Shown here: piece after piece, positions 19,389 to 52,200 of the stretch
Position numbering within the stretch: the first letter of the stretch is position 1
How the letters are laid out: every line of letters starts with the position of its first letter
Assembly (NCBI GenBank): GCA_964035575.1
Contig: OZ037890.1
Coordinates: forward strand, 744,001-808,000
Length of the DNA: 64,000 bases
Direction: 5' to 3'
DNA from: Rhynchopus sp. YZ270_cl-10
Taxonomy: Eukaryota > Euglenozoa > Diplonemea > Diplonemida > Diplonemidae
Translations under genes and position numbers: made by a program
Notes under the pieces: generated by a model
Database searches by the model: none
What the model was told of the DNA's origin: nothing
Seen by the model: the letters and a program-made list of their open reading frames with translations, nothing else

Positions 19389-20671
19389 ATGGAGCGTTTT
19401 AGGGTTTGTGGGATGACGCCCGATGACGGCTGATGACGCCCGATGACGCACGATGACGGCCGATGACAGCACGATTACGTTTTTTCTTTTTTTGGTAGAA
19501 GGTACCAAATGTTCACACGAACATCGGTTTCACGATATTCACCCACCATTTAAAGGGAAATCACTGAAGATGTCCACCCTTTTGAATACAACTGTATGAT
19601 TCTTAGGACTGAAACAGGGTTAATATCAGAAACCAATCTACTGAAGTTTCAACTTGTGCACGAAGCATTTTACTTTTCTTTTCTACGTTTTGCAAAACAC
19701 ACAACATAAAAAGAAAGATGGGACCATTTTTGTTGATCCCTCACCAAATACTATCAATTTATTGATTGCATATGATGAAAATACTTTTTTTGGGTACTGT
19801 GTGTGCTGTGTGTACTGTGAAAACTGTGTATACTGTGTATACTGTGTATACTGTGTATACTGTGTATACTGTGAAAACTGTGTATACTGTGTATACTGTG
19901 TATACTGTGTATACTGTGTATACTGTGTATACTGTGTATACTGTGTATACTGTGTATACTGTGTATACTGTGTATACTGTGTATACTGTGTATACTGTGT
20001 ATACTGTGTATACTGTGTATACTGTGTATACTGTGTATACTGTGAAAACTGTGTATACTGTGTATACTGTGTATACTGTGTATACTGTGTATACTGTGTA
20101 TACTGTGTATACTGTGTATACTGTGTATACTGTGTATACTGTGTATACTGTGTATACTGTGTATACTGTGTATACTGTGTATACTGTGTATACTGTGTAT
20201 ACTGTGTATACTGTGTATACTGTGTATACTGTGTATACTGTGTATACTGTGTATACTGTGTATACTGTGTATACTGTGTATACTGTGTATACTGTGTATA
20301 CTGTGTATACTGTGTATACTGTGTATACTGTGTATACTGTGTATACTGTGTATACTGTGTATACTGTGTATACTGTGTATACTGTGTATACTGTGTATAC
20401 TGTGTATACTGTGTATACTGTGTATACTGTGTGTACTTGTCCATTTCGGCAAATTGACCCCACCACTGGCCGGACGGATTCCGAAAATGCAAATGCCGGT
20501 GTTTAAAAGCTTCACCAAGGATTTCACCGAGGAAAAAAAATTTTCCCCTAGCACGATGATTCCCGATTATGCACGATTATGCACGATTACTCAGGATTAC
20601 GCACGATGACGCCCGATGACGGCCGATGACACCCGATTTAGCGCGATTCACCCCCCCGGAAAACGCTCCAT
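19389..20671. repeat. composite repeat block bounded by 12-bp inverted repeats
   Basis: ATGGAGCGTTTT at 19389-19400 and its exact reverse complement at 20660-20671 bracket a 1.28-kb block. Inside each end is a run of 10-bp units around CGATGACG or CGATTA (about 19412-19480 and 20551-20649, in the same orientation). In the middle is the 9-bp satellite. CCA occurs on both sides and could be a 3-bp target duplication, but this is weak. It may be a non-autonomous transposon that captured or grew a satellite. Confidence 0.45.
19806..20437. repeat. 9-bp satellite (~70 copies of TGTATACTG)
   Basis: An almost perfect tandem array of TGTATACTG over about 630 bp. Sparse variants TGAAAACTG occur near 19816, 19870 and 20042, at spacings that are multiples of 9. 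Every unit contains the palindrome GTATAC. All six frames are open through the array, giving meaningless tripeptide-repeat frames (Cys-Val-Tyr and Thr-Gln-Tyr among them). It is not a gene. Confidence 0.95.
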
Positions 20672-21070
20672 CCAAGTGCTATAGATTAATTTGTCATACT
20701 TTTTGTGGTGTGCGGCGCGAAGAACAACATTTTTTTATTATTGTTGAGTGTTCAAAAAAAAGCCAACACCACTAAAAGATTGTTCCACACTATTTTAGAA
20801 TGTCCTTATTATTGTGTTGTGTAAAAAAAAAAAAAGTAAAAGAAGTACCCCCCTTTTCTTAAGAAGATCTTCGCCCTATTGGTGGACCGGTATTTTTGTT
20901 ATTTTCTCTCCAAAACCTTTCAACCTTTCACCTCCTCACCTCCAGGGGAATCCAACACAACCACCCCCACCCACCTAGCATTTCTTCAATGCTAAATCAA
21001 TAGTCCTCCCCTTTTTATTTTTCTTTGCCCCTCTCACAACTTCTTCCCCCATCCTTCTTAACTCAACACA

Positions 21071-24000
21071 ATGGGTGGACCGAAGCAGCCCCCTGTGGGT
21101 GAGAATGTTGCACCTGGTACGGCGGCATTCATTGGCTACCCTTTGCGACGTGGTGCGAGCGGTGGGAGCAATCAAAGGTATACTGGGAAGGGTAGTAGCA
21201 GTGGTGCTGGTGTCGGCAGCGCGCCCGGGCTTGGGAAGATGAATATGGCACCGCCCCCGCCGCGGCGCTGGCGGGAGTCTCCGCCACCCACATCCTCCTC
21301 ATCACCACACGACTTTGGCAGGCGAAGCAGTCATTCGGACAGCAGGTCCGCATCCCTCCCACCCACTACAAGCAGCAGACGTGGTGCAAGCCCGTCCTCC
21401 TATCCCCCAAGATCTGTCCGTGGTTCGCAGGATCGCGCTCAGGATCGCCCTAGCGGATCGGCCTCTCGAGTTGATAGCATTCGAGGTGGAGGTGGGGGTG
21501 GTGGTGGTGGAGGGAGTTCACGTTACGGAAGAAGCGACTTCCCCCGCAACAGCGCCCGCCGCGAGTCGACCCCCATCCCAAACAACCGAGAGCGTGACTA
21601 CGACCGTTCGATGTTCTCGGATCAGCCAGGAGAGGACAAGCCCTCCTGGGGTAAGGGGCGTGACTTCACTGGGGACGATGCAAGGCGGTTTGGGAGTAGT
21701 CGCGGTGGGGGTGGGGGTGGTGGTGGTGGTGGTGGACGTGGGAGCTTTGGGGACAGCGCGCAAGGGACACTGCGCAAAGGGGATAGCCATTACCATGGGG
21801 CTGACCGGCATAAGGAGGTCAGTAGTAGCAATAACAACAGCAGCTCCAAGACCAACAGTAGCAGCAATAGCAATAGCAACAGCAACAGCAATGCCAGCAG
21901 CAGCAACGCCAACAGTGACGAGCAGAACAAAGCACGAAAACGGCTCCGCAACCGTTCTAAAGAAACCCGTGGGAAGGCGAAGGAAAAGGACACGGTAACT
22001 GAGAAACCAAAGGAGAAGGAGAAGGAGAAGGAGAAGGAGAGAGAGAAGGAGAAGGGGAAGGACAAAGTGAAAGGGAAGGACAAGGACAAAGTGAAAGAAA
22101 AGGACAAAGCGAAGGAGAAGGAGAAGAGCACTAAGACAAAACCGAAGCCACGAGAGAAGGAGCAGCCTCAATCAAAAGAAAAACCTGCCGACAAAAAGAA
22201 GAGCCGCACCAAGGAGAAGGAACGCGAGCAGAAGACGAAGGACAGCGGGCGTGACAAGGCGCGTGACAAGCCGAAGACAGGCAGCGCCGCGACGACGAAG
22301 GGTGAGAAGGAGGCACGTTCCGCGCAGAGCACTGCCACCGAAGCTGCCACCCCGCCACCAGACACCCATCCCGACACCACCAACACCACCAACACCTCCG
22401 AACCCATGGAGGATGTTGCCCCTGACGCCACCCTTGACGTTTCCGCAGCTGCCACCACCCAGCGTGCTGCATCCGCCCCCCCTCCTGCATCCGCCCCTCC
22501 TGCAGACAGCGAACCCGCCGCACCAACACCCACACCACCTACACCGACCCCAACCACACCAACTGACGCACCCAAGGTTCCACGCGAGCCTTCACCCCCA
22601 ACAGAGCCTGTGTCTGAGAGCGTGCCAGCCCCTCCCGAGGCTTCTGACGTAGCTATGGCGGACGTAGCAGAACCGAAGGAGCAACCCGAGGAGCAAGACC
22701 CGGTCAGAGAGGCGGAAGTAGAGGTGATGCAGGTTGACGCAGTTGAGACGGTCGCAGTGGTACAGCAGCAACCTGAAGTGGAGGTTGTGGAAGTGACGGA
22801 GGTTGTGGAGGTGGTGGAAGTGGTGGAGGTGGTAGCCAGCCCCAAGCCAGACGACGACACTGTGATGCAGGAGGAGTCGTCGTTGCCGCCCCCGGCTCAG
22901 TTTGTTGCGCCAACCTCACCAGAACCTTCTGTGGTGCGTGAGGCCAGTCCGGTCCGGGTGGAAGTTCCGGTGAACGTCGCACTGTCGCCACCTCCTGTGA
23001 TAGACTGTGATGAGGAAATGGTGGAGGAGGAGCTGCCTTCTGGTGCGCAGTCGCCGCTCGCGAATTCAGATTTGGCTTCAATGGATGCGCATCCTAGCAG
23101 AAAGAGGAGACGGACGAGCCCTGACGACGATACGCGCATATCAGTTCTCGAGGGTGTGCAGATTGCAGCAGAGCAGGTCCATCCTTTGGGATGGGTGCGT
23201 GCCACAGCAACGTCTACTTCGGTTCCAATCCCATCAGTGAATGGAATCGCATTGGCGCGGGAACAGATGAGCAAATCGAACACTTCGCCAGAGGATTCAC
23301 ACCTCACTACGAGACAACGTGCGATCCGCGCCACGAAGCAGAGCGAGAGCGAGAGCAAGCTGTGGACACAGTGGGCACCGGGCTACCGTTCTTCCTACGT
23401 CCCTGCGTCACGCCTCAAAAGCAACAACACGGTCCGCAAGCAGACAGACACCAAAGGCCGCGAATCCTCAGATGAGGAGGAGGAGGAAGAGTCGGCGTCC
23501 TCCGAACCCACCGGCCCCATGCCTGCAGAAGCGCAACTGGTCAAGACGGTGCTCCCTCCCCCGCTCATGACAAACAACCTAGCAGCCTTCGCACGACATC
23601 TGAAGGGATGCAAAAAGGTGGTCGTCTGCGTAGGAGCTGGCGCCAGTGTTGCTGCAGGTATCCCTGACTTCAGAACACCCGGCAAAGGGTTGTACTCGAA
23701 CGAACGTCTGAAGGAGTACAACATCCCAAAACCCGAGGACGTCTTCAGTCTCCGTTACTTCAAACGCCGCCCCGACGCTTGCTATGGCATGCTTAACGAA
23801 ATGTGGCCCGGGAAGTGGCCACCCACCCGGGTGCACTACTTCCTCCGCCTCCTCCACGATAAAAACATGCTACTGAGGGTCTACACACAGAACATTGATG
23901 ACCTCGAGCGCATGGCTGGTGTCCCCTCTTCGCTTCTTATTGAAGCGCACGGTACGTTCTCTTATGTGCAATGTACAGATTGCGGCTTTCAACCGGCTGT

Positions 24001-25739
24001 CGAATATGCGAAGGCAGCGCTGGCAAAGGGAGAACGTCCGATCTGCCCCGAATGTCAACGCACCTTTCCGGATCCTCCTGCGTTTAGAGCGAAGAAGGCG
24101 CCGCACATTACACTGCCTTCGCAGACCGAATGCTTGCGGATCTTTGTGTATGGAACGTTGCGTCCTGATGACACTTCCATGATCGAACCAGCACCCATCG
24201 CTTTGGCCGGCATGGAGTACAGAAAGGCCTTTGTCAAAGGACTCAAGCTCTACCATGACGGACGACCTTATGTACGGGTACCAGACCCTGCTGCGACTAT
24301 GGAGGACTGTGTGCAGGGGTTTATGATTAGGTGTCGGGATCTAGGGCAATTTATGAAGAAGCTTGGGGAGATCGATACGCGTATCGGGTATCCTACGTTG
24401 TGCGAGCGTGCAAAGGTGTTGGCGCATCCGAGCGATGGGGGCGTGCCCGAGGCAGCGTATATCTACCATTACCCTGCCTGCGCAACGCATACGGAGATCC
24501 CCTATGGGGATTGGGAGAGGAGGAGGGAGTGGCGGCAGCTGCCTGAGATACGGGGTCTCATCAAGCCTGGGGTGGTCTTCTTCGATGAGGAGCTGCCGCC
24601 GGAGTTTGCCCCGCAGCAGATCACGGAGGACATGAAGGAGGCGGAGGCGCTGATCATCATTGGGACCTCGCTCCGTGTGACGCCGTTCTGCTGGCTGCCG
24701 CATCTAGTCGACACAGCGTGTCCACGTCTGCTTCTCAACCTCAACGCAACGGAGGTAGGTGAAAAGGCTGGCTTCGCATTAGACTTCCCCGGATGGCGTG
24801 ATGTCGCCCACGATGGGGACTGCCAAGCCGCGGTGACGATGCTGTCGGAGCTGCTCGGGTATGTTTTTTTCTTTTTTTTTTTCCTCGCAAAGTGTGTTTA
24901 GAAACCAGACAAAGAGAAAGCCATTTGACGTATACCCCAGAACCTCTAGACTGTCAGGCTTCTTTTATTTGGTGGGAGTCACCTCTCGAGGACTGTCGTT
25001 GAGGCTAATAGGGGTGCTTTCATTTGGAGGAATGGTTCTAATTTTGAGATTCAATTATTTTTTTGCAAAACAGATGGGGCAACGAGCTGGTCGGGTTGAA
25101 GGCGGATGGAGACGCAAGGATGCGGGAGCGATGGAGAGAGGAGGTACGTGCACTTTTATTCGTTCATGCATTTTTTTTTTTGTTTTAAATTTATTGATCG
25201 ATAATTTCAAATACTTTCTATTCACCTGTATTTGAACATATAAAGAATACAACACGATGCTGTTGAGATTCGCTGTATGCTGTCTTTTTTTCTTCCTTTT
25301 AAGGCAACGTAACACCCAGTCCATCTTAACAAATCTTTCTTTTCCACTCACATCCCACCCTTTGCATAAGCTCGACCCGAGCTGCGTTTTAACACATTTC
25401 AACTTTTTCTTTTTCCAGGAGGAGGCAAAACGGAAGAGCATACGAGACCACAGCTGTTCTTCGTATTCTTCTATAGAGGGGCCTGATACGCTGACGTTTT
25501 TTGAGGGTGATTTCCACTTTGAAAGCGATGATGACGATGAGGTCAATGCAAAGGAGGCAAAAGAAGCGAAAGAAGTGAAAGGCGGTAAAGATGCAACGCC
25601 TGCTGCACCCACCGTAGCGAAGGGAGCCAAGGCAGGTCAGGACAGCCAGAAGCACTCTAGACAGACGAAGCTCCAAACCACTCCAGCTCAGCCAGCGCAA
25701 GCGAAATCTACCAAAGGGACAAAACGGAAACGCAAGTGA
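21071..25739 (+). CDS. giant sirtuin with GGCT/AIG2-like domain inserted in the catalytic core
   Basis: Three exons, 21071-24858, 25074-25143 and 25419-25739, give 1,392 residues. Residues 1-830 are low complexity: Gly/Ser/Arg-rich, Asn/Ser-rich, Lys/Glu-rich, then Pro/Thr and acidic stretches. The SIR2 core follows: VGAGASVAAGIPDFRTPGKG near 855, TQNIDDLERMAGVP, catalytic histidine in IEAHGTF, and zinc ligands CTDCGF and CPECQ. Where ~10 residues normally lead to the next strand, about 150 intervene, with FVYGTLRPDD near 1023 and IGYPTLCERAKV near 1105, typical of the AIG2/gamma-glutamylcyclotransferase-like fold. The sirtuin resumes with IKPGVVFFDEELP and IIGTSLRVTPF. Exon 2 supplies GWGNELVGLKAD, the normal sirtuin end; exon 3 adds a Lys-rich, probably nuclear tail. 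NAD-dependent deacylation is expected. AATAAATAAAG near 25855 may be a poly(A) signal. Confidence 0.88.
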
Positions 25740-26932: not shown

Positions 26933-27129
26933 AGGATCTTTAACTTATTCTAAAAACCCCCACCCACCTCCACCCTCCACCCTCCACACAAAAACCACCA
27001 GGAACACAACACTTATATTACACTACACCCAGCCTTTCCCCTTTTCTCTCTTCTCTCCCTCTCTCCCCTCTTCTCATCTGATACTCACAACACCCCTCAC
27101 CCCTCCGATGCGTCTATGACTAAGGCAAA

Positions 27130-30100
27130 ATGAGCCGCACATCACTCGGGAGAAGCGAGGTCTCCGGTGGGTCCATCCCCACCGTTTCAGATGAAGGGTC
27201 CGTTGTGGACAACATCCCCATGCAACCTAAGCGGAGCAGGCTGGCAAACACCCCTGGGGGGATGCTTCGGAAGACAACGTTGGACAGTGTTTCCACTTCA
27301 CCCCCGCGGAAGAAGGTTAATTTTGGCGTCGCAGATGACACTGTGTCAGAAACAGGGACATTATGCACAGTTGGACAAGATTTGGATGTAGAAAACAGCT
27401 TCATGCAGGACTGTCAACGTAGCAGCGTCAACTCTGCAAGCGATAAGGGGGACACTGATGGCAAACCGAAGCTCAAACACGCTGCAACCTTTATGAAGCG
27501 TGTAACCGCGTTTCGCCCAAACGATGATGCGCCCCTAGTGGTGCCGCGCACTCTGCGCGAGAAGATCTATTCTCTGTTTGACTCAGCCATGCCCACATGG
27601 TCACAGGAAAGCGCGACTGCACAAACTGTTTTGTCCGTTTCGGTGCTTGTGGTGATCGTGATATCGGTGGTCTGCTTCTGTGTGGAAACGTTGCCGCAAT
27701 ATCAAGAGGGTGGGAACGAAACGTTTACTACAATAGAAGGAATCTGTGTCGGTATTTTCTCAGTAGAGTTCATGCTTCGGGTGACGTGCACAGCGGATTT
27801 GCGAGGGTTTTTCAAGGATTTTTTGAATTGGATTGATTTGGTATCGATTATGCCTTGGTACGTCGCGATGGTTGCAAAGCTGCTTGCTGGTGGTGACAGT
27901 GGTGCTGGATCCACCTTCATTGTCTTCCGTGTAGTACGCCTGGTGCGTGTCTTCCGTGTCCTCAAACTTTCGAAGTACTCCATCAATTTGCAGCTCGTTG
28001 CCATCGCCGTGGCACGCTCTCTTGACGCGCTGTCCTTGCTTCTGTTTTTGATTGTCATTTGTTTGCTTCTTTTCTCTTCTGCAGTGTATCTGGCAGACAC
28101 TACGGAAATGCGGTTTAACAAAACAGACGGCGTCTGGCGATATGAGGACACGCGAGGTATTGAGCAGGACGCACCGTTTCAGTCGATCCCTCATGCGTTT
28201 TGGTGGTGCATCGTGACGCTCACGACGGTGGGGTACGGAGACGAATACCCGGTGTCGCTGTTGGGGAAGGTGATCGCGTCGCTGACGATGTTGTGCGGCA
28301 TCCTCGTGGCAGCGTTCCCTGTTATTCTGATTGGGAACAACTTCAATGAAGCCGTGGACGAACACAAACGACGACAAAAGCAGCACGCTGAGCTGCTGCA
28401 GCGCGTTCTCGGGCAAGAGAAGATCACCAGCATAGACGATGTGCCGGACGTCTACCAGTGTGAGTCGGAGATGAGGGTTCAATTTGATCGGATCAAAAAA
28501 AGCCTTGAATCAGAGTTGGAGCGTGTCGGTGTCAAGGTGAGTCTCACAGGGGCAGCAGAATCTCGTGACTTCCGTGGCCACAGTGTCGGCGACGTCTGCG
28601 CCACATACGAGCTGGAACGAGGCATGCGCTCACCCATCACGCTCTTCTCCTACGGGAACCAGCCCCTCGTCGTGACCCGCGAGGACGAAAGCGGCATACA
28701 AAAGGTCTTCAGCACACGAAGTTCTCTCGTCAACGCGCCACTCAAACTCCTTGTCAAGAAGTTCAACCAGCGCGTGAGGGACGTCTCGCAGCAGCGGGAG
28801 AACATAGAAAGGGCGTCTGTCATGTTTCAGGTATGACCCCATATAGACTGATGGGAGTGTTGCAACACTAACAAGAAGGGGTGTTTTGAGGCTTCAGGGT
28901 TTCGTTGGGTTCGATGCCGATAGTGGTGAAGGATGTGTGCATGAGAGGAACATTCATTTCTTGGATTTTTCCCCCTCTCTGACGGAGGTGACTAAGCACG
29001 AGAGGCTTAGGTTCATCTTATAAACTTTTCTTTTTTGTGCCTTCTGCTGCAGGGTACTTATGCTATTATTCGTATGGCTGGCATCGTACTGTAGGTCAGT
29101 CGGAGGTGCCTGCATCACCATTTTTTTTTTTTGTTGAATTTCCAATCCACCATCACCATCCACACAGTTCCGCTACGAGCCTCTCTTCTCCATTGGTCAG
29201 ATGAGTGCCTACGCTGATGACACGTTGTTCTTCATCAAAGTGGAGGTATGAAATAACGCCTCAGTTCATCCGACTAAAACTTCCTTCTTTCTTTAACCCT
29301 TAGACCAGAGGGGGGGAATTTTTTTTGGTTTTTGGGGATCTAGTAGGCCCTCCTTGAGGTAATGACGTTAACAGATACGAATTTTTGACCGATTCTGGTT
29401 TGCAACCTTTTTAACGTCTCTTTCTGGGATCATTCATTGAGGTTTGGTTAACTATTCTCTCTTCAGATTGAATTGGATTCTGCACGCGCACAAAAGGCAG
29501 CGATGTCTGCCTTGTTGGAAACCGGAAAGTACGCGAACGTGAAGGAAGGGAACGTCAACGCGCGGCAGCTGCGGCAGATTGCAGGGAACATTCCTGGCCT
29601 TGAAGCCATGTTCCCGGATGTGCAGGTATGTTTGTTCTTGATGGAGGTTCAAGGTCTACTTCTTGAAGGCGTTTCTGATGCAAGCGAACCCGTTGGAGGT
29701 TTCGCATTCAGTCTTAAGCATGATTTGATGATTATTTCAATCTCTCTTGAAACATTTTGAAGCCAGCGCCTGAGCCATTTTCCACTGTTCCCCAACTGTT
29801 CATCAAACCCCTCTTCCTCTTCCCTTCCCGTCACACAGGTACGATGTAAGACCATGCGACCCGGCTCTACTGTAGCCTTGACAGTGTTCGCACCGTGCAT
29901 CGCACGACTCAAAGAAGTCGAGGAAGTCATCCCGCATATGAACATGCATTTCCAGGTATGCTTACAGTCTTCCCTTTGACGTCATGAGAACCCACGATTT
30001 TTTTTCCTCTTGGACCGTCAAGATGTCGAGGTACATTCATCCCAGGTTCCTTTCATTTTTTTTTTTGAGAAGAGTTCGATTTCGGCCTCGAAAAATACCG

Positions 30101-42131: not shown

Positions 42132-43466
42132 GAACGATTTTTTCTGTGTTGTCATAGTCCAATCGCGGCCCTTCCTTCGTGGTGATGTACCACCCATCTG
42201 GGATGTGCCTCTCCGTCAGTCTGTGGAGGTAGCCCAGCGCCATCGTTGTGTCGGAGAAAAAAAAATGACATTATCTCGAACAACATACTGCTGTGAGGGG
42301 AAAACCATCTCCCAGCAAAAAAGCTAGGAGCGTTGAACCTTCAAGAAAAGCACTTTTGTGAGGCTCATTCATCTCTCAGCCTTTGTGTCGTACGTCGCCC
42401 CGAGCAAAGCCCCATTGATTTGGAGGCTTTTGAGGAGCTGATAAGGGTCTCTGGTTCTTTGCAAATTCCCCCCCACTTTTTAGGGGGAAAACCACAGGGA
42501 AGACCAGAGAGCGAATAATTCGTTTTTTTTTTTTTGTGTCATCTTTGCCATACTCTTTGAGGGATGAATGTCATTCTGTGAGCCAACCACTGCGTTCCTG
42601 TTCTTTGCACGGGGGGCTGTAAAGGGTTTAAGGGTTGTCTTGACACGCCACCCACTGTAATGCAGCCTCCTATGGTGAAAACTGCCCCTTTTGGAGTGGT
42701 TTGCTTTTCGGCAAAAAAAAACCATAAAAGCCACAGCAATACAGAGAGAACCAACCTCCCTTTTTTTACCTTGTTACCCCTTTTGGGTGATAAGGGATTG
42801 AGGAGAGAACCTATTCTGGTGTATGGTCGATGACATATTAAACCCAGAAAAAACGAATATCAGTCATGGTTTTTGAGCCATGAACATTAACCCGAAAATA
42901 ATCGCTTTTTTAAAAAAATGGGCAAGCTGCATCGTTGTGGAGGGGATTGTTATTGAGAGTTGTGAGAGTTTTGAGAGTTAAAGAAAAACGCGTTTTTTTC
43001 CCCTTCGTTTTCCTTTGATGTATTGTGTATGTGTTATCCAACATACAGCTATATGTCTTCCAGTTTAAGTTCCAACCATAACCCCCTCTTTTAGTTATTT
43101 TTTCTTTCTCTTTCTGACCAACGGGTGTTACCACAAAACGCATCATTTAGCTATATTTTGATATCTCTCTCACTCTCTCTTCCCCTCCCTCATTCTGCTG
43201 CCCAAATACAGTATTTTGTTTTGGCAAAAAAAATAATAGCAAATTTTCCAAAAAAAAGACAGTGAGTACTGTCTATATGGCAGCTACACGAATCCAACAG
43301 CAAAGAAACAAAGAGAAATCCCCTTTTTACCCCAATCCGTTGATTTAGTAGCTGTCCATTCTCTACCGCAAGACATATCGTTTTCCACTCTCCAGGGGGG
43401 ATTTCAAATATCTCAATAATAATCTTCTTCAAACCCACAGAACAAAAAAAAAAAAGACACTCCACG
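42132..43466. other. intergenic spacer
   Basis: I see no gene, hairpin element or inverted-repeat element here. Composition is T-rich with short mixed stretches. The last 200 bases are the likely leader of the BILBO1-like gene. Confidence 0.4.
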
Positions 43467-44738
43467 ATGTACATTCGGGTATGTGCAGACATCGCGGGGA
43501 AAAAGGTGAATTTAGAGCTTCCTTTCAATGGCGTGCCGAGTATTGGGGAGTTGACTAGGCGGATTGATGACGTGTTTTCCTCTGAGATGCGGGTGTTGCA
43601 GCCAGGGTTTGGCGAACGCTTCTTGACAACGAAGATGCAGGTGTACGACGACCGACATTTGAAGTGGGTTGACCTCCTGAGCTCGGACCAGATCACGACA
43701 GACCGCTGTCAGGTCTACGCCTTCAAGGAGAACGGTGGATCCCCTGTCCGCGACATCCAACAAGAGATGCCCGCCCCCCGCGCACCCTCCGCCAGCTCCG
43801 TCCCCTACCACAGCTCCTCCCCGCAGCGCAGTGTAGGTGGCTACTCCCCGGGCGGCAGCTACCAGCACGTCTCCCCCCTCAGCTCCGAATGGCGTGTCGG
43901 GAAGGAACGTCCCCAGGTCCCCTTCCAGGACAAAATCGACACCACCTTCCAAGACTTCAACCACTCCCGATCCGGGTCAATCAGCCATGGGGAGCTGACA
44001 AACGGATTCAAAACTGTGGACATCGACTTCACCGCGGGGACCCTTGATGAGCTCTTTGTTAAAGCAGACCGCAACCAGGACCAGCGTTTGACTCCAGAGG
44101 AGTGGCGGGCGTGGTGTGGGGTGTACCCCAATACGTTGGACTGTGTGTACTTCAGGGGGCGGGACCGGGTGGAGGAGGAGGAGGTGAACAGGGCGTCGAG
44201 GCGTATCCAGGATGATCTTGTGCAGGCGGAGTCGCGTGAGCAGCAGCTGCGTCGCGAGCTGGATGAGATCCAAGCACGCAAGGCAGACGGGCAGCGTCAG
44301 ATGGAGGTCTTCAGACAGCGCCAGGCGGCCTTCCAGCAGCGTCGCGACACGCTTGAGCAGCAGGAGCGTGACCTGATGGAGCAGGAGATCCGCCTCGAGC
44401 GGCAAAGAGACCACCTCAGAACACAGGAGCATCGTTTCAACGTCGCAGCACATAAGTTCGACCAGGCAACTGCGGTATGTACAAAAAGAATATGTAGACA
44501 ATGGTGTGCCCTATATAGGGCTATAGTGTATACCCTAGAAGTACCCAATTTACACCTAATTTTGGGAAAAATCACACCAGGCATAATGTTAGAATTATTC
44601 CACTAAAAACGGCTGCGGGGAAAAGAAAAGAAAAAGGCCCCTGGAAGTTCTTCCAAGCCATGTGAGAGAGTGCTGACCAAATCAACTTATTCACAGGCAA
44701 CCGCATCGCCCCGCCGTGCACTCAGAACTGGAATGTGA
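43467..44738 (+). CDS. BILBO1-like protein: ubiquitin-like N-domain, two EF-hands, coiled coil
   Basis: Exon 1, 43467-44474, ends in phase 0 before GTATGT. A short exon at 44697-44738 would add 13 residues and a stop, giving 349 residues. Residues 1-92 (DIAGKKVNLELPF, MQVYDDRHLKWVDLLSSDQI, CQVYAFKENG) resemble the N-terminal domain of trypanosome BILBO1. A Ser/Pro linker precedes two EF-hand loops, FNHSRSGSISHGEL near 161 and ADRNQDQRLTPEEW near 197, then YPNTLDCVYFRGRD and a coiled coil to the exon end. Order and spacing are those of BILBO1, which polymerises into the flagellar pocket collar. Alternatively the gene continues through exons at 45086-45132 and 45441-45489. The match is from memory of the family, not a search. 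Confidence 0.7.
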
Positions 44739-46054: not shown

Positions 46055-46225
46055 GTACATATTTCAAGTCAACTTTTTTTGTAGACCCTCTCCCGAGAAT
46101 AGCCTCTTCCCGTACACCATCTCTCCCTACCAAAGCCTCCCTCCCTGCAGCAAAAGGGCGGTGTTCTGACACCATGCGACGCTAACACATTCCCCCCCTC
46201 TTCTCCCTCTTCCCATTTAGGTCCT

Positions 46226-49200
46226 ATGGGCGATCCTCCTGCAGAAAAACGGCAGACATGGGCGACCGATATGTTCCCGACCCAGGGGGATATAGAAATG
46301 GACCAAATGGGGAACGGCGATTATGAAACCGATTTGGGGTCGCCGCCTCCGTCCGAGGAGATGCTGTCGACGGGGACACCGAGGGGGTTTGCCGCGTCGT
46401 CCGCTTCTTCTGCTTCGTTTTCGTCGTCGTCATCGCTGTCGGAGCTGCGAGCAACCCGCTATGACAAAGATTTCTTAAACGGAACCACAGGCAATGCAGC
46501 ACAAACCCACGACACAGACCAAGCCCTTGCGGACCTCGCAGAAGACGTGCCTTTAGCTTGGCCACGCTGGCGAGCAGAGTTCCGTCGATACTTCTTTCAC
46601 GCCACCTGGCTGCACCACGTCTTCACCGCCGCCATAGTACTTAACTGCATTATCCTCGCTATGTACGACCCTTTAGATAAAGACCACTCCAACGGACGCA
46701 AAGCATTGACCGTCATTTTAAATGCTGGAGACGCGTTTTGTTCGATTTTATACTTTCTTGAAATGTGTTTCAAGATCATTGCGATGGGTTTCTTCGAATA
46801 TCTCGGCAAGAAATGGAATGTCGTAGATGGGGTCATCGCGATTGTCGGGATTGTCGCAATGATACCGGTCACCCCAGGATCGCTTGACGTCGTCAAAATG
46901 ATTCGCCCTCTAAAACTTTTAAACGCCATTCCAACCATGGAGCGCATCATGAACTCTTTAATCGAAAGCATCGCCACCCTCTTTTATGTGGCAGTTCTAT
47001 ACTTCTTCTTTTCCCTTGGTATGGGGATTATTGGGGTGCAACAATGGGAAGGGCTTTTTCTCAAACGCTGTCTTCTCAATGAAACCCGCTTTTACATCTC
47101 TGAAACTGGGTCGATCGATGGGTACGACAGTTTCACCGAATTTTCAGGTATAATCAATGGCATGGCGTCTGCAGCAGGGGAGACCGATATGAACCTCTCT
47201 GTCTTGCAGACGGGGTTTGCTGCGTTGCAAGGGTTTGCGGATTTTGAATCAAATCTGACTCTGTTGCAGAAGGTTGCCTCTACCGACGCAGTCTACGAAG
47301 ATGAAACTGTGTGCAAAACGTTGGAGGAGTTTTCCTCCTTCGGTGGGTTCTACTGTCCGTATATGTACGACTGTTTGGACTATCAAAATTTGCAGAACGG
47401 TTGGCTCTCATTTGACCATATAGGAGTCGCAATGTTGACACTGTTTCTCGGCATTTCACTAGAAGGCTGGACCACCACGATGTACCAAACCATGAACGCG
47501 ACGAGCTATTTTGCGGTCTTCTACTGGATTTTTTTGATTCTGATTGGATCCTATTTTTTGATGAACTTGACGCTTTTGATTATTGCGGAGACGTTTAATT
47601 CTTCGATTATGCGGGCAAAAGCGAAGAAAAACGAACTAAAAAAAATCCGCGCAAAACGCGCAGAAGAAGCAGCCGCTGGGGACCACACCTCCACCTCCAC
47701 CTCCGATGATGACATTGATGGCGACGCAGACTTACACAACTTCTACCTCAAATCAACCGGTGTAGACTACAAACGGCTACAAAAAAAGGCGGAAAAACCC
47801 AAATCGAAGAGCAGGCTTGATGTATTCAAAAAGATTGGCTTGGAGATATACTTAAAGCTTGCCCAATGCGGCGCTGCGACCCGCCCGCAGGCACTACGAG
47901 AAAAACTGAATTCCAAAATTCTACGAAATGTGTGGTTTCGCCGATTTCTCATCTTTTGCATTGTGGTCAACACGGTTACCCTCTCTGCAGAGTACCAAGG
48001 GCAAAGCGAGCGCACTACACAAGCCTTCAACATTCTTAACATCATCCTCACCTTCATCTTCACCATGGAAATCTTTCTAAAGCTCTACGTAGGAATGCGA
48101 CGCTACATCAAAGACCCCTTCAACCTTCTCGACATCATCATCGTTGTCTCCGGTCTCCTTGAATTCTTTATGTCCGGAGAAGGCTCCATCAGCGCCCTCC
48201 GCTCCCTCCGTGTCCTCCGCGTCATCCGATTGGCAACCTATTTCAAGCAACTCCAAAAATGGGTTCACATTCTGATGAGCGCCTTCCGAAGCGTGCTGTA
48301 CATAGTGTTGTTGTTGTTGTTCTTGATTTTTGTGGGGGCGATATGGGGGATGATGCTCTTTGGTGGGGGGTTATGTGAAGAGGCGGAGGAGGGGCCGGTG
48401 GGGGTCGATCTGACGATATTTCAAAATATTACGGTGGAGCCGTTTTCGACGTTTTATCGGCGTCTCAATGGGGTTTCACGCAGTCCTACTGATGGAAGAT
48501 GTAAACCAGGTTTTGTTAACCCACGATACAACTTTGATACGCTCCACAACAGCATTCTCGTCACCTTCCAAATTATTACCGGGGAGGATTGGAACACCCT
48601 TCTTTACCTTACAATGGATAACACCTCATGGCTTGCGGGGGTATATGGGTTGAGTATTTTTATTGGTGGGAACTATTTGATTTTGAATTTATTTGTGGCG
48701 GCGTTGTTGTGTCGTGCAAACGGCGAGCCGATGACCATCTCCGGAAATAAAACGCCTGCGAATTTACAACTTCGTCAGGTCGCCTTTGCGTCTCTTTCTC
48801 CACAACAGCTGGAGGAGTTGAGATTGATTGATGAGGAACAGTTTAAACATCGGCTACTCCATTATGGAGTAAAACGGAGCATGCTGACTTCTTTGGGACG
48901 TGGTTTTGGTGCAGCAGAGTTTGCGGAATGTGATGATGAAGTGCTCAATACTTTAGGCATCACAGATCAAGCATGGCGTCTCAAGCTCCTCCGTCTCGGC
49001 AACGCGCTTAGAAATGATCCAGACGGCTTTATGGAGATTGATCAACATATTCGATATGCCGCAGAATGTCTCCACCCACTGCTCTGTCGTATCCATAAAG
49101 ATTTTCGTATTGCAGCGATTCAAGATGATCATAATAAACAGCAGGATCAGCAGCATACTTTGTCTTCGTATATTAAAGAGCAGAGTACCTTAACGGAGCT

Positions 49201-52200
49201 TGCGGAGCCGTTGTATGAGGAGGAGATGGCGTCGTTTTCTTCGGTTTCGCATGAACAGAAACCAACGGAGTTAACGCATTATAGGCATTTATGTGACCCA
49301 GAAGAGGTCTTGCATTCAGTCGCATCGTATGGGGATGACCCAAGAGTGCTGCAGCAGTGTTTGATTATGAAGTATCCACGATACGCTTCGGAGTCGAAAT
49401 ATTTGTTGAAAACGTGGATTGCGGCGTACGATGCGAAGATGAAGGAGCGGGACAATGTTGCGACAAAGGTGAGCGAAATGCTCAAATCTAACAAAGATTT
49501 TGATGCATCTTCTGCCAAAGTCGGTATCGATGCTGTTACCAGCGTAGTCGAAGCATATGACGACGCACCAATGCTTTTAGTCGAAGACCTCAAACTCCGT
49601 TACGTACTCCTCGACCGAGAAATCCTTTTCTTAGAAGACTGGAAATCCGAGAGAGACGCCCGCGAACAAACCTTCTCAGAATTCTACAAAATGATGCGCG
49701 AATACGAAGCCTCAAAGCACTCCTTCTTCAACACCTTCAAGCTAGCACAATCCGACAATGCATTATTCATCTTCCCCAGATCCTCCGACACCGAAGCAGA
49801 TTCTTGGGCAACCCAACACCTCATCAAATTTCTCAGCCAATTCCGATCATGCGTTATAATAATGTGCGATTCGCGGGTGTTCGAATGGTTTATGGTGTTA
49901 GTCATCATGGCATCTACGGTGTGTCTGGCAATAGACACTCCGTTACGACCACCAGATCATCCTCAAGAAGTGTTAATTGAAAAGGTACAGTTTGTTACGA
50001 TGTGCGTTTTTGCGTCGGAGACGCTGTTGAAGAGCATTGCATATGGGTTTTTCTTGAATGAAGATGCTTATCTACATCGCGATATGTGGAATCGTCTGGA
50101 CCTATTCATCACAGTCACCTCCATTATAGGTGAAATGCTTCCCCTTCCGCACTCAGGAATGGATCTGCATCGGTCCTTCCGCATGCTCCGTCCTTTGCGA
50201 TTCATCAACAGGCTGGACGGCGTCAAGGTAGTGTTCACCGCAATCCTTTCATCGCTCCCACCGTTAATGAACGTCACGCTATTGTCGTTGGTAGTATGGT
50301 TGATATTCGCTATCGTAGGACTACAACAATTTAGCGGGCGGTTTCATAAATGCACGGACAAAGAATATGGTGATATGGATGGGGTTTACTCCACTCGAAT
50401 TGAATGCATCGAAAATGGATGGAAATGGGCTAACGCCGATGCGAATTTCGATGACATCGGACACGCTTTTCTTACCCTCTTTCAAGTCGCAAGCCTCGAA
50501 GGTTGGCCGACTGTAATGTATAACTCTATCGACGCCGTCTCCTACGACGTCGCGCCACAGAAGGACCGAAACCCCTACCTCGCGTATTATTACATAATTT
50601 TCATCATTTTTGGATCCTTCGTTATTGTCAACCTTTTTATCGGCGTTTTGATTGATACGTTTACCGCACAAAAGCAGTCAGTAGGAAAGTCGTTGGTGCT
50701 TTCCCCTGGCCAAGAGAGGTGGGTGAGGGTGCACTCCGAGATGTTGCAGATGGTGAACGACGAGCTAAGCAAAGACCCGCCGACGAACATTGCGCCCTTC
50801 CGACAGAAGCTGCACCGGATTGTTACTACCAGGAAGTTTGACCTTGCGATTGCGGTGTGCATTGGGATTAACATTGTTGTGATGGCTTTGGAGCATCATC
50901 CTTCCTCGGAAGCGTTTGATGTCTTGGCTGTGGTGGTCAACGATGTCATGCTTGGTGTTTTTGCGTTGGAGGTTGCGGCGAAGGTGATTGCTCTTGGCCC
51001 GAAGGCGTTTTTCAAGAGCCCATGGTGTCGCTTCGACCTTGTCATCGTGTTGTCCAGCGCTGCGCCCTTCATCATTGTGTCGCTGCTCGACCTCTTCGGC
51101 AGCCATGAGTCCACGCAGACCCGTGTGAACAGCTTCCGTGCGCTGCAGCTCCTCCGTCTCTTGAAAATGATGCGTGCCTCGCGTGGCATCCGGCGTATGC
51201 TCAAGACTTTGTTCCTCTCCGTCCCATCGCTCTTCAACGTCTCTGCTGTAGTCGCGTTGCTTCTCTTCGTCTATGCGGTATGTCAAAGGATTGACCCTTT
51301 GCATTAAAGACAAATCTCTGGTAAGAGGTGAATAGAGAGTGTTAGAAACAACCAATTCCCGTTTTAATAGCCTTTTTTTTTGGCCTCAAAGAGGTTTGCT
51401 CTTGGCCAGGTGGTCAGTGGGAGCGTATTGCAGTAATAAAAAATGTCACCACAACAGGTCCTCGGGGTTCAGGTCTTCTCCCGCGCAACGTGGGGGTCTG
51501 GTCTGAGCAGGCTTGCGAATTTCACTCAGTTCGGCCCGTCTATGCTTTTACTGTTCCGGATGCTGACTGGAGAGGAGTGGCATGCCTTTATGTACGACTG
51601 CATGGCAACGCGGGAGCAAGGGTGCGAGGAGCACATTGGCGGGTGTCTGCCGTATTGGTGGGCCCCTGTGTACTTTGCGTCCTTTTGCCTTGTGGGGATG
51701 TATATGCTGAGCAACCTTTTTGTTGCTGTGGTCATTGACAACTTTGGTGCGGCGAATGCCTCTGTCTTGGACGAGGCGTATCGCAACACCCTCACACAGC
51801 AGTGGCGGCTCTACGCGACCGGCAAGCGCCTTCCCCTTGAACGTCTTGAGGGCTTCCTCACTGGCATTGGGCCGCCCCTTGGGCTCTACCCAGACTCGCT
51901 CCTCGTCAAGCCCTTCATCAAGGAGCTTGACCTCCACGCCTACACCCGCCGCAACGGAGACCTCTATATCCACCAAGACGAAATCTACCCAAAGCTCTTC
52001 TCTCACGCCTTCGGCACGCCACTCCCTGAGAAAACCCTTAAAAAGCTCCGCAAACGGCAAGACTCTGTCCTAAAGAGCGTTCGTGGGAAGGACAAAATGA
52101 CGCCCCTCAGCGAGATCAACAGCATTGTGAAGGTGCAGGCGATATGCAGGGGGTTTCTTTTGCGTGCGAAGATGCAGAAGTGGCGGGCAAGCAATCCAAC

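Follow-up and report, generated by a model that had tools for sequence, protein, structure and literature searches.

In a window of 64,000 nucleotides from Rhynchopus sp. YZ270_cl-10 (contig OZ037890.1, positions 744,001 to 808,000 of the forward strand), a sirtuin gene was found whose catalytic core is split by a domain resembling the gamma-glutamylcyclotransferases (GGCT) of the AIG2-like, or GGACT, kind. Profile matches, relatives and predicted structures support the nesting of this domain inside an otherwise intact sirtuin. The gene product is, judged from its sequence, most likely a class I (SIRT2/Hst2-type) sirtuin and hence an NAD-dependent lysine deacylase, and the reading that we favour, with a probability of roughly 0.55, is that a decayed cyclotransferase serves this deacylase as a module for binding a ligand or the substrate. 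Both domain families are already known, and it is their nesting that appears to be new. The original prediction for this stretch had stated that no sirtuin with such a nested enzyme was known; in the titles and abstract openings of the literature matches listed, a sirtuin with a GGCT domain nested in it was indeed nowhere described, but the nesting proved not to be unique to this genome.

The core was taken as 430 aa (window 23570-24859), and residue numbers are given in core counting unless another protein is named. Pfam SIR2 matched it in two stretches (158.3 bits in total, E 2.6e-46, cut-off 24), and between the two the GGACT family PF06094 matched residues 191-316 (36.5 bits, E 8.4e-9, cut-off 22.8; E 1.2e-9 on the insert region alone). 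This bore out, by the profile searches that had been proposed as a check, a GGCT/AIG2-like insert between the second zinc CxxC and the following strand: its first junction immediately follows the fourth zinc cysteine (CPECQ), and its second immediately precedes GLIKPGVVFFDEELP, the KPxVVFF strand. The sirtuin motifs were likewise complete and in order as predicted, with GAGxS, TQNID, the catalytic His, GTSL and four zinc cysteines all present, and the single frame 21062-24901 (1279 aa) was open from stop to stop and so continuous across the insert. The accompanying claim of unchanged codon use held on entering the insert, where G+C at third codon positions moved only from 0.60 to 0.62, but not beyond it, where it rose to 0.76. 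An NCBIfam scan of the insert alone returned no family, and its profile gave 0 matches against PDB sequences at E up to 1. The length of the insertion was counted in an alignment of 31 chosen relatives (A5). From the last of the zinc cysteines to the KP of KPxVVFF, 21 of the 27 GGCT-less sirtuins have 4-6 residues, where the window sirtuin, whose closest known counterparts are the class I sirtuins human SIRT2, yeast Hst2 and SIRT3, has about 170; the other six, all diplonemid-type paralogues (P0125-P0130), have 24-54. These paralogues share the class I core and the lengthening at the same place but, unlike the nested proteins, show no GGCT domain. In the three nested proteins complete on both sides the gap is 169, 170 and 174 residues. 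A mixed alignment of 68 rows (A4), in which the sirtuin KP region fell under the YGTLRP motif, was dropped.

A search of related genomes for the same nesting, also proposed beforehand, found it in at least three relatives. P0002, a 710-aa product of an assembled transcript with 63% to the core over 99% of its length, and P0123, from another contig, both carry the two Pfam families. Diplonema papillatum is represented by two overlapping partial predictions, so that the gap between cysteine and KP is not measurable there: P0003 spans the first half of SIR2 and half of the GGACT domain (13.9 bits for the latter, below the Pfam cut-off), and P0124 runs from the linker through GGACT, with PF06094 over its cut-off, to the end of SIR2, the stretch in which they overlap being identical by eye. 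The four nested copies formed a single clade with 100/100 support in both the core tree and the domain tree. The core tree had 41 rows (37 chosen relatives, two of them joined, the window protein and four sirtuins from its own genome); 18 of its 38 inner branches were open forks, and the sister of the nested clade was not resolved. Among the matches listed, the nearest named relatives of the window sirtuin were D. papillatum proteins, and from this and the trees P0002 and P0123 are inferred to be of diplonemid origin. The core searches drew on 230 distinct proteins together (the best 120 of 373 found in one search, at least 113 in another). Scoring was confined to proteins 0.55-1.75 times as long as the query and, in two long-query searches, to the approximately 8000 candidates with the most words in common, which makes the count of four nested species a lower bound.

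Recurrence of this kind makes an intron, a chimera or a chance match very unlikely. A retained intron, an overlapping gene or an assembly chimera might be suspected, given that the gene does contain introns and that its model was read from genomic DNA. Such an artefact is nevertheless highly improbable, since at least three relatives, of which one is known from an assembled transcript, share the nesting, the reading frame stays open and is conserved, and the T-rich runs seen in both predicted introns are, by eye, absent from the insert. A chance match was rejected on the profile score, well above the cut-off, together with the recurrence in relatives.

Structure prediction, another of the proposed checks, gave results in agreement with the profiles. 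In a first model a class I SIRT2 fold was predicted to run around the insert. In a second, built from the family alignment, the insert was predicted with confidence, 12 of the 13 ten-residue blocks over residues 191-320 having a mean predicted local distance difference test score (pLDDT) of at least 84 and the other one of 70. As the best 50 rows of the PDB structure lists were all sirtuins and hence uninformative on GGCT, the GGCT-like fold of this predicted model was read from a Foldseek search of viral models, which returned AIG2-like proteins of Fadolivirus (E 1.3e-6, TMt 0.70) and Satyrvirus (E 2.3e-4, TMt 0.42) and two better-fitting rows (TMt 0.78) without a functional name. The linker that precedes the domain was partly below a pLDDT of 50 in both models.

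All sirtuin catalytic and zinc residues that were checked are intact. Ten conserved core positions are altered in every nested copy, including the equivalents of SIRT2 Phe131, Leu134 and Ala135, acyl-pocket residues that read Cys, Met and Leu in the window protein, and the FFGE of SIRT2, Hst2 and SIRT3, which reads FFDE. The SIRT2 numbering was assigned through the pattern of residues named in the literature. The altered pocket may reflect a preference of the sirtuin for an acyl group other than acetyl.

A study of mouse GGACT places Tyr7, Gly8, Thr9, Leu10, Ile50, Glu82, Tyr88, Tyr115 and Tyr143 in the catalytic site (PMC2954230), and gamma-glutamylamines are given as GGACT substrates in another (PMC7022552). 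The corresponding columns were counted in 56 of the 60 short proteins that the four insert domains retrieved when used as queries (alignment A6; P0272, P0278, P0288 and P0292 left out). With GGACT/AIG2-like cyclotransferases of PF06094 the nested domain shares the profile match, the YG[TSG]L loop and the predicted fold; the glutamyl-binding loop YGxL is present in all four nested copies and reads YGTL in the window, in agreement with the YG[ST]L motif of the family. It differs from them in being nested in a sirtuin and in its active site. The Tyr88 position is Cys in the window protein and P0123 and Ser in P0002 and P0124, against Tyr in 55/56 free-standing relatives, and the Glu82 position, Glu in the other three nested copies and in 55/56 free-standing relatives, is Ile272 in the window (codon ATC), so that the window copy has neither residue expected of an active enzyme. 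The original prediction had read the catalytic acid as EID; this motif ends in an invariant Asp (D in 56/56 relatives), and the true catalytic-Glu position lies three residues beyond it. In all four nested copies the family Trp207 is replaced by Pro and the family Phe211 is lost, and Arg280 and Tyr299 are kept in all four. Between species the nested domain is 45-56% identical (42% for the half in P0003), as against 4-23% for the linker. The domain is constrained, though apparently not for ordinary catalysis. The proposal of a working nested enzyme that couples deacylation to the chemistry of gamma-glutamyl groups or glutathione is thus not supported for this species, with Ile at the Glu position and Cys at the Tyr position, and a second, active enzyme in the window protein was rejected on the same grounds. 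The alternative offered with it, that the insert is a binding module, fits better with the loss of both.

A second pairing of the same GGCT subfamily with a SIRT2-like sirtuin was seen in P0007, an 876-aa metagenome protein, and, more weakly, in P0008, whose start is cut off. P0007 carries an N-terminal GGCT domain (residues 97-258, 49.3 bits, against at most 1.9 bits in 500 shuffled versions of its N-terminus), for which the Pfam GGACT model reported no match at E 0.1, followed by a clear SIR2 domain; its zf-UBP match (21.4 bits) fell just below the cut-off of 22.7. P0008 has the second half of such a GGCT domain (residues 20-73, 10.7 bits) before zf-UBP and SIR2. Apart from these two, none of the 232 proteins scanned was a sirtuin lacking the nested domain that scored clearly for the GGCT subfamily. 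In P0007 the equivalents of Tyr7 and Tyr88 are gone and the Glu remains; in P0008, by eye, Glu and Tyr are apparently both kept. Because the domain is N-terminal in these fusions, unlike in the nested proteins, and the sirtuin core of P0007 falls outside the nested clade in the core tree, the pairing would have arisen more than once if the assemblies are right. P0007 suggests a functional link between the GGCT subfamily and sirtuins.

Under the favoured reading, a loop of the zinc module would have received, in a single event in an ancestral diplonemid, a free-standing AIG2-like gamma-glutamyl cyclotransferase domain, which would no longer act as a cyclotransferase in this species and would now have a binding role next to the acyl-lysine cleft. 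It might recognise a gamma-glutamyl- or acyl-lysine-type feature on a protein substrate, or it might sense a small gamma-glutamyl ligand (5-oxoproline or a glutathione-related compound) and pass the signal on via the zinc module. That the domain is specifically a gamma-glutamyl sensor or acyl-lysine reader gating the sirtuin is put forward tentatively. If true, diplonemids and, separately, the lineage of P0007 and P0008 would have wired gamma-glutamyl metabolism, or protein N-epsilon-gamma-glutamyl-lysine, into NAD-dependent deacylation. No such pairing of sensing or reading with sirtuin gating was found in the titles and abstract openings of the literature matches listed, and we know of none between gamma-glutamyl recognition and NAD-dependent deacylation. 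Several observations weigh against the binding-module reading. The catalytic Glu is kept in three of the four nested copies and in P0007, and the partial P0008 seems by eye to retain both Glu and Tyr; the conservation of the YGxLRPDD loop could equally reflect catalysis on an unusual substrate. The models leave the mutual orientation of the two domains unfixed (pTM 0.67 and 0.50), the insert being poor in the first (39-86 over blocks of ten residues), as is a large part of the sirtuin in the second. Furthermore, four of the ten altered sirtuin positions (339, 360, 374 and 395) are changed in the majority of the six paralogues too, and therefore not all ten changes are peculiar to the nested form.

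Weak or altered catalysis is possible in the three relatives that retain the Glu. Under a two-enzyme reading, most diplonemids would have a nested domain that still works as a gamma-glutamyl(amine) cyclotransferase, the window copy being recently dead, and that cleaves, next to the sirtuin, for example N-epsilon-gamma-glutamyl-lysine, which is itself an acyl-lysine. This is favoured by the Glu of P0002, P0123 and P0124, by the activity of GGACT on gamma-glutamylamines (PMC7022552), and by the sirtuin fusions of the same subfamily, P0007 and probably P0008, in the latter of which Glu and Tyr seem to be retained. Against it, the match to Tyr88, one of the nine catalytic-site residues listed in PMC2954230, is Ser or Cys in all four nested copies, and the family Trp207 is Pro in all four; we regard this reading as unlikely. 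Decay of the catalytic residues, together with a site that tolerates additions, as seen from the 24-54 other residues at the same place in the six paralogues, would also suit a zinc-module spacer that has a structural or protein-docking role and no small-molecule or acyl-lysine ligand. A mere spacer, however, would have no need of the YGxL loop and of Arg280 and Tyr299, kept in four of four copies, and would leave the second pairing of the subfamily with a sirtuin unexplained; this too we regard as unlikely. With a binding module, the presence of a whole enzyme-fold domain between zinc module and substrate strand, kept across several diplonemids while catalytic residues were lost, would amount to a natural experiment in how an enzyme of metabolism becomes a regulatory part. 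Since the same subfamily is also found with a sirtuin elsewhere, in another order, a single purified protein would suffice to test whether gamma-glutamyl chemistry and lysine deacylation are linked.

The nearest sequence relatives of the nested domain belong to a free-standing subfamily with the pattern FVYGTLRPDD...GDW, with members in Dictyostelium, Naegleria and metagenomic sequences and including P0233 and P0236; unlike the nested form these are short, lack a sirtuin, and have the Glu and the Tyr each in 55/56. The 60 proteins of the insert search are free-standing by length, although some, lying on short contigs, may be fragments of larger proteins, and a few look bacterial. In a domain tree containing 54 of them, the nested clade joined P0233 and P0235 at 97/95, with P0233 alone as sister at 89/72; the tree has long branches, that of P0007 being the longest (3.66). 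P0233 carries an 'Hpha' label, and we take it to be from Hemistasia, a diplonemid. Bacterial or viral transfer as the source of the domain was rejected, because the searches yielded only three loci in bacterial metagenome-assembled genomes and two viral loci, of lower identity (28-38%, against 42% for P0233), and because of the 97/95 grouping with P0233 and P0235. A search of the Rhynchopus assembly (152 Mb, 126 contigs) with P0233 returned the nested copy only. Another locus there, L009, was a poor match to the insert profile and is another kind of GGACT; a third GGACT match (L011, G000:C13:1744826-1745206), with internal TGA and TAA, could be either an intron-split gene or a decayed copy. 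The insertion site seems to be loose in diplonemids, and our guess from the paralogues is that the loop was lengthened before the insertion, an order that the core tree does not resolve.

The features of the gene are collected in the table. Exon 1 would encode approximately 830 residues of mostly low-complexity N-terminus and then the catalytic core, its 3' end being placed by a GT donor at 24859 and by the spliced continuation GWGNELVGLKADGDARMRERW, homologous to P0002. Stretches resembling LTTRQRAIRATKQSESESKLWTQW were seen by eye in P0002 and P0003 and, more loosely, in P0123, and the acidic tail also occurs in P0002. The stretch given in the original prediction stops at 25143, which is the end of the small exon 2 as predicted here.

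Table. Features of the sirtuin gene (window positions; introns and exons 2 and 3 inferred).
Feature	Position	Strand	Basis or remark
Exon 1, start codon uncertain	21071..24858	+	Open frame; 3' end from GT donor and homology
Short N-terminal motif LTTRQRAIRATKQSESESKLWTQW	23303..23374	+	By eye
SIR2 core, first part	23570..24058	+	Pfam SIR2, motif table, model
NAD-binding motifs and four zinc Cys	within 23570..24058	+	
Catalytic His127	23948-23950	+	
Last zinc Cys	24053-24055	+	
Linker	24059..24130	+	Little conserved among relatives (4-23% identity)
Nested GGCT/AIG2-like (GGACT) domain	24131..24541	+	Pfam PF06094, column counts, predicted fold and its matches
YGTL loop	24149-24160	+	
Catalytic-Glu position, Ile272	24383-24385	+	
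Tyr88 equivalent, Cys278	24401-24403	+	
GDW	24506-24514	+	
SIR2 core, second part, GLIKPGVVFFDEELP to ELLG	24554..24858	+	Pfam SIR2 second stretch, model
Intron 1	24859..25073	+	GT...AG, T-rich runs; reading then resumes P0002 homology
Exon 2	25074..25143	+	GT/AG borders; spliced reading matches P0002
Intron 2	25144..25418	+	GT...AG, 3' end CTTTTTCCAG
Exon 3, acidic stretch, then tail ending KRKRK and stop	25419..25739	+	Open frame

Elsewhere in the genome, another sirtuin (L008, G000:C18:1677310-1678101) has, by eye, a low-complexity insertion between its two zinc-cysteine pairs. Approximately 0.6 kb upstream of the sirtuin gene, window 19795-20437 holds about 71 copies of the 9-base repeat TACTGTGTA, with long open frames in several readings. 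Downstream, a single-repeat channel lies at 27124-28833, and a 1734-aa frame at 46103-51304 with four Ion_trans stretches resembles a four-repeat voltage-gated channel. BILBO1_N is the family of a kinetoplastid flagellar protein, and an EF-hand-like protein at 43344-44603 matched it weakly (E 3.7e-5, 24.4 bits, below the Pfam cut-off of 28.3).

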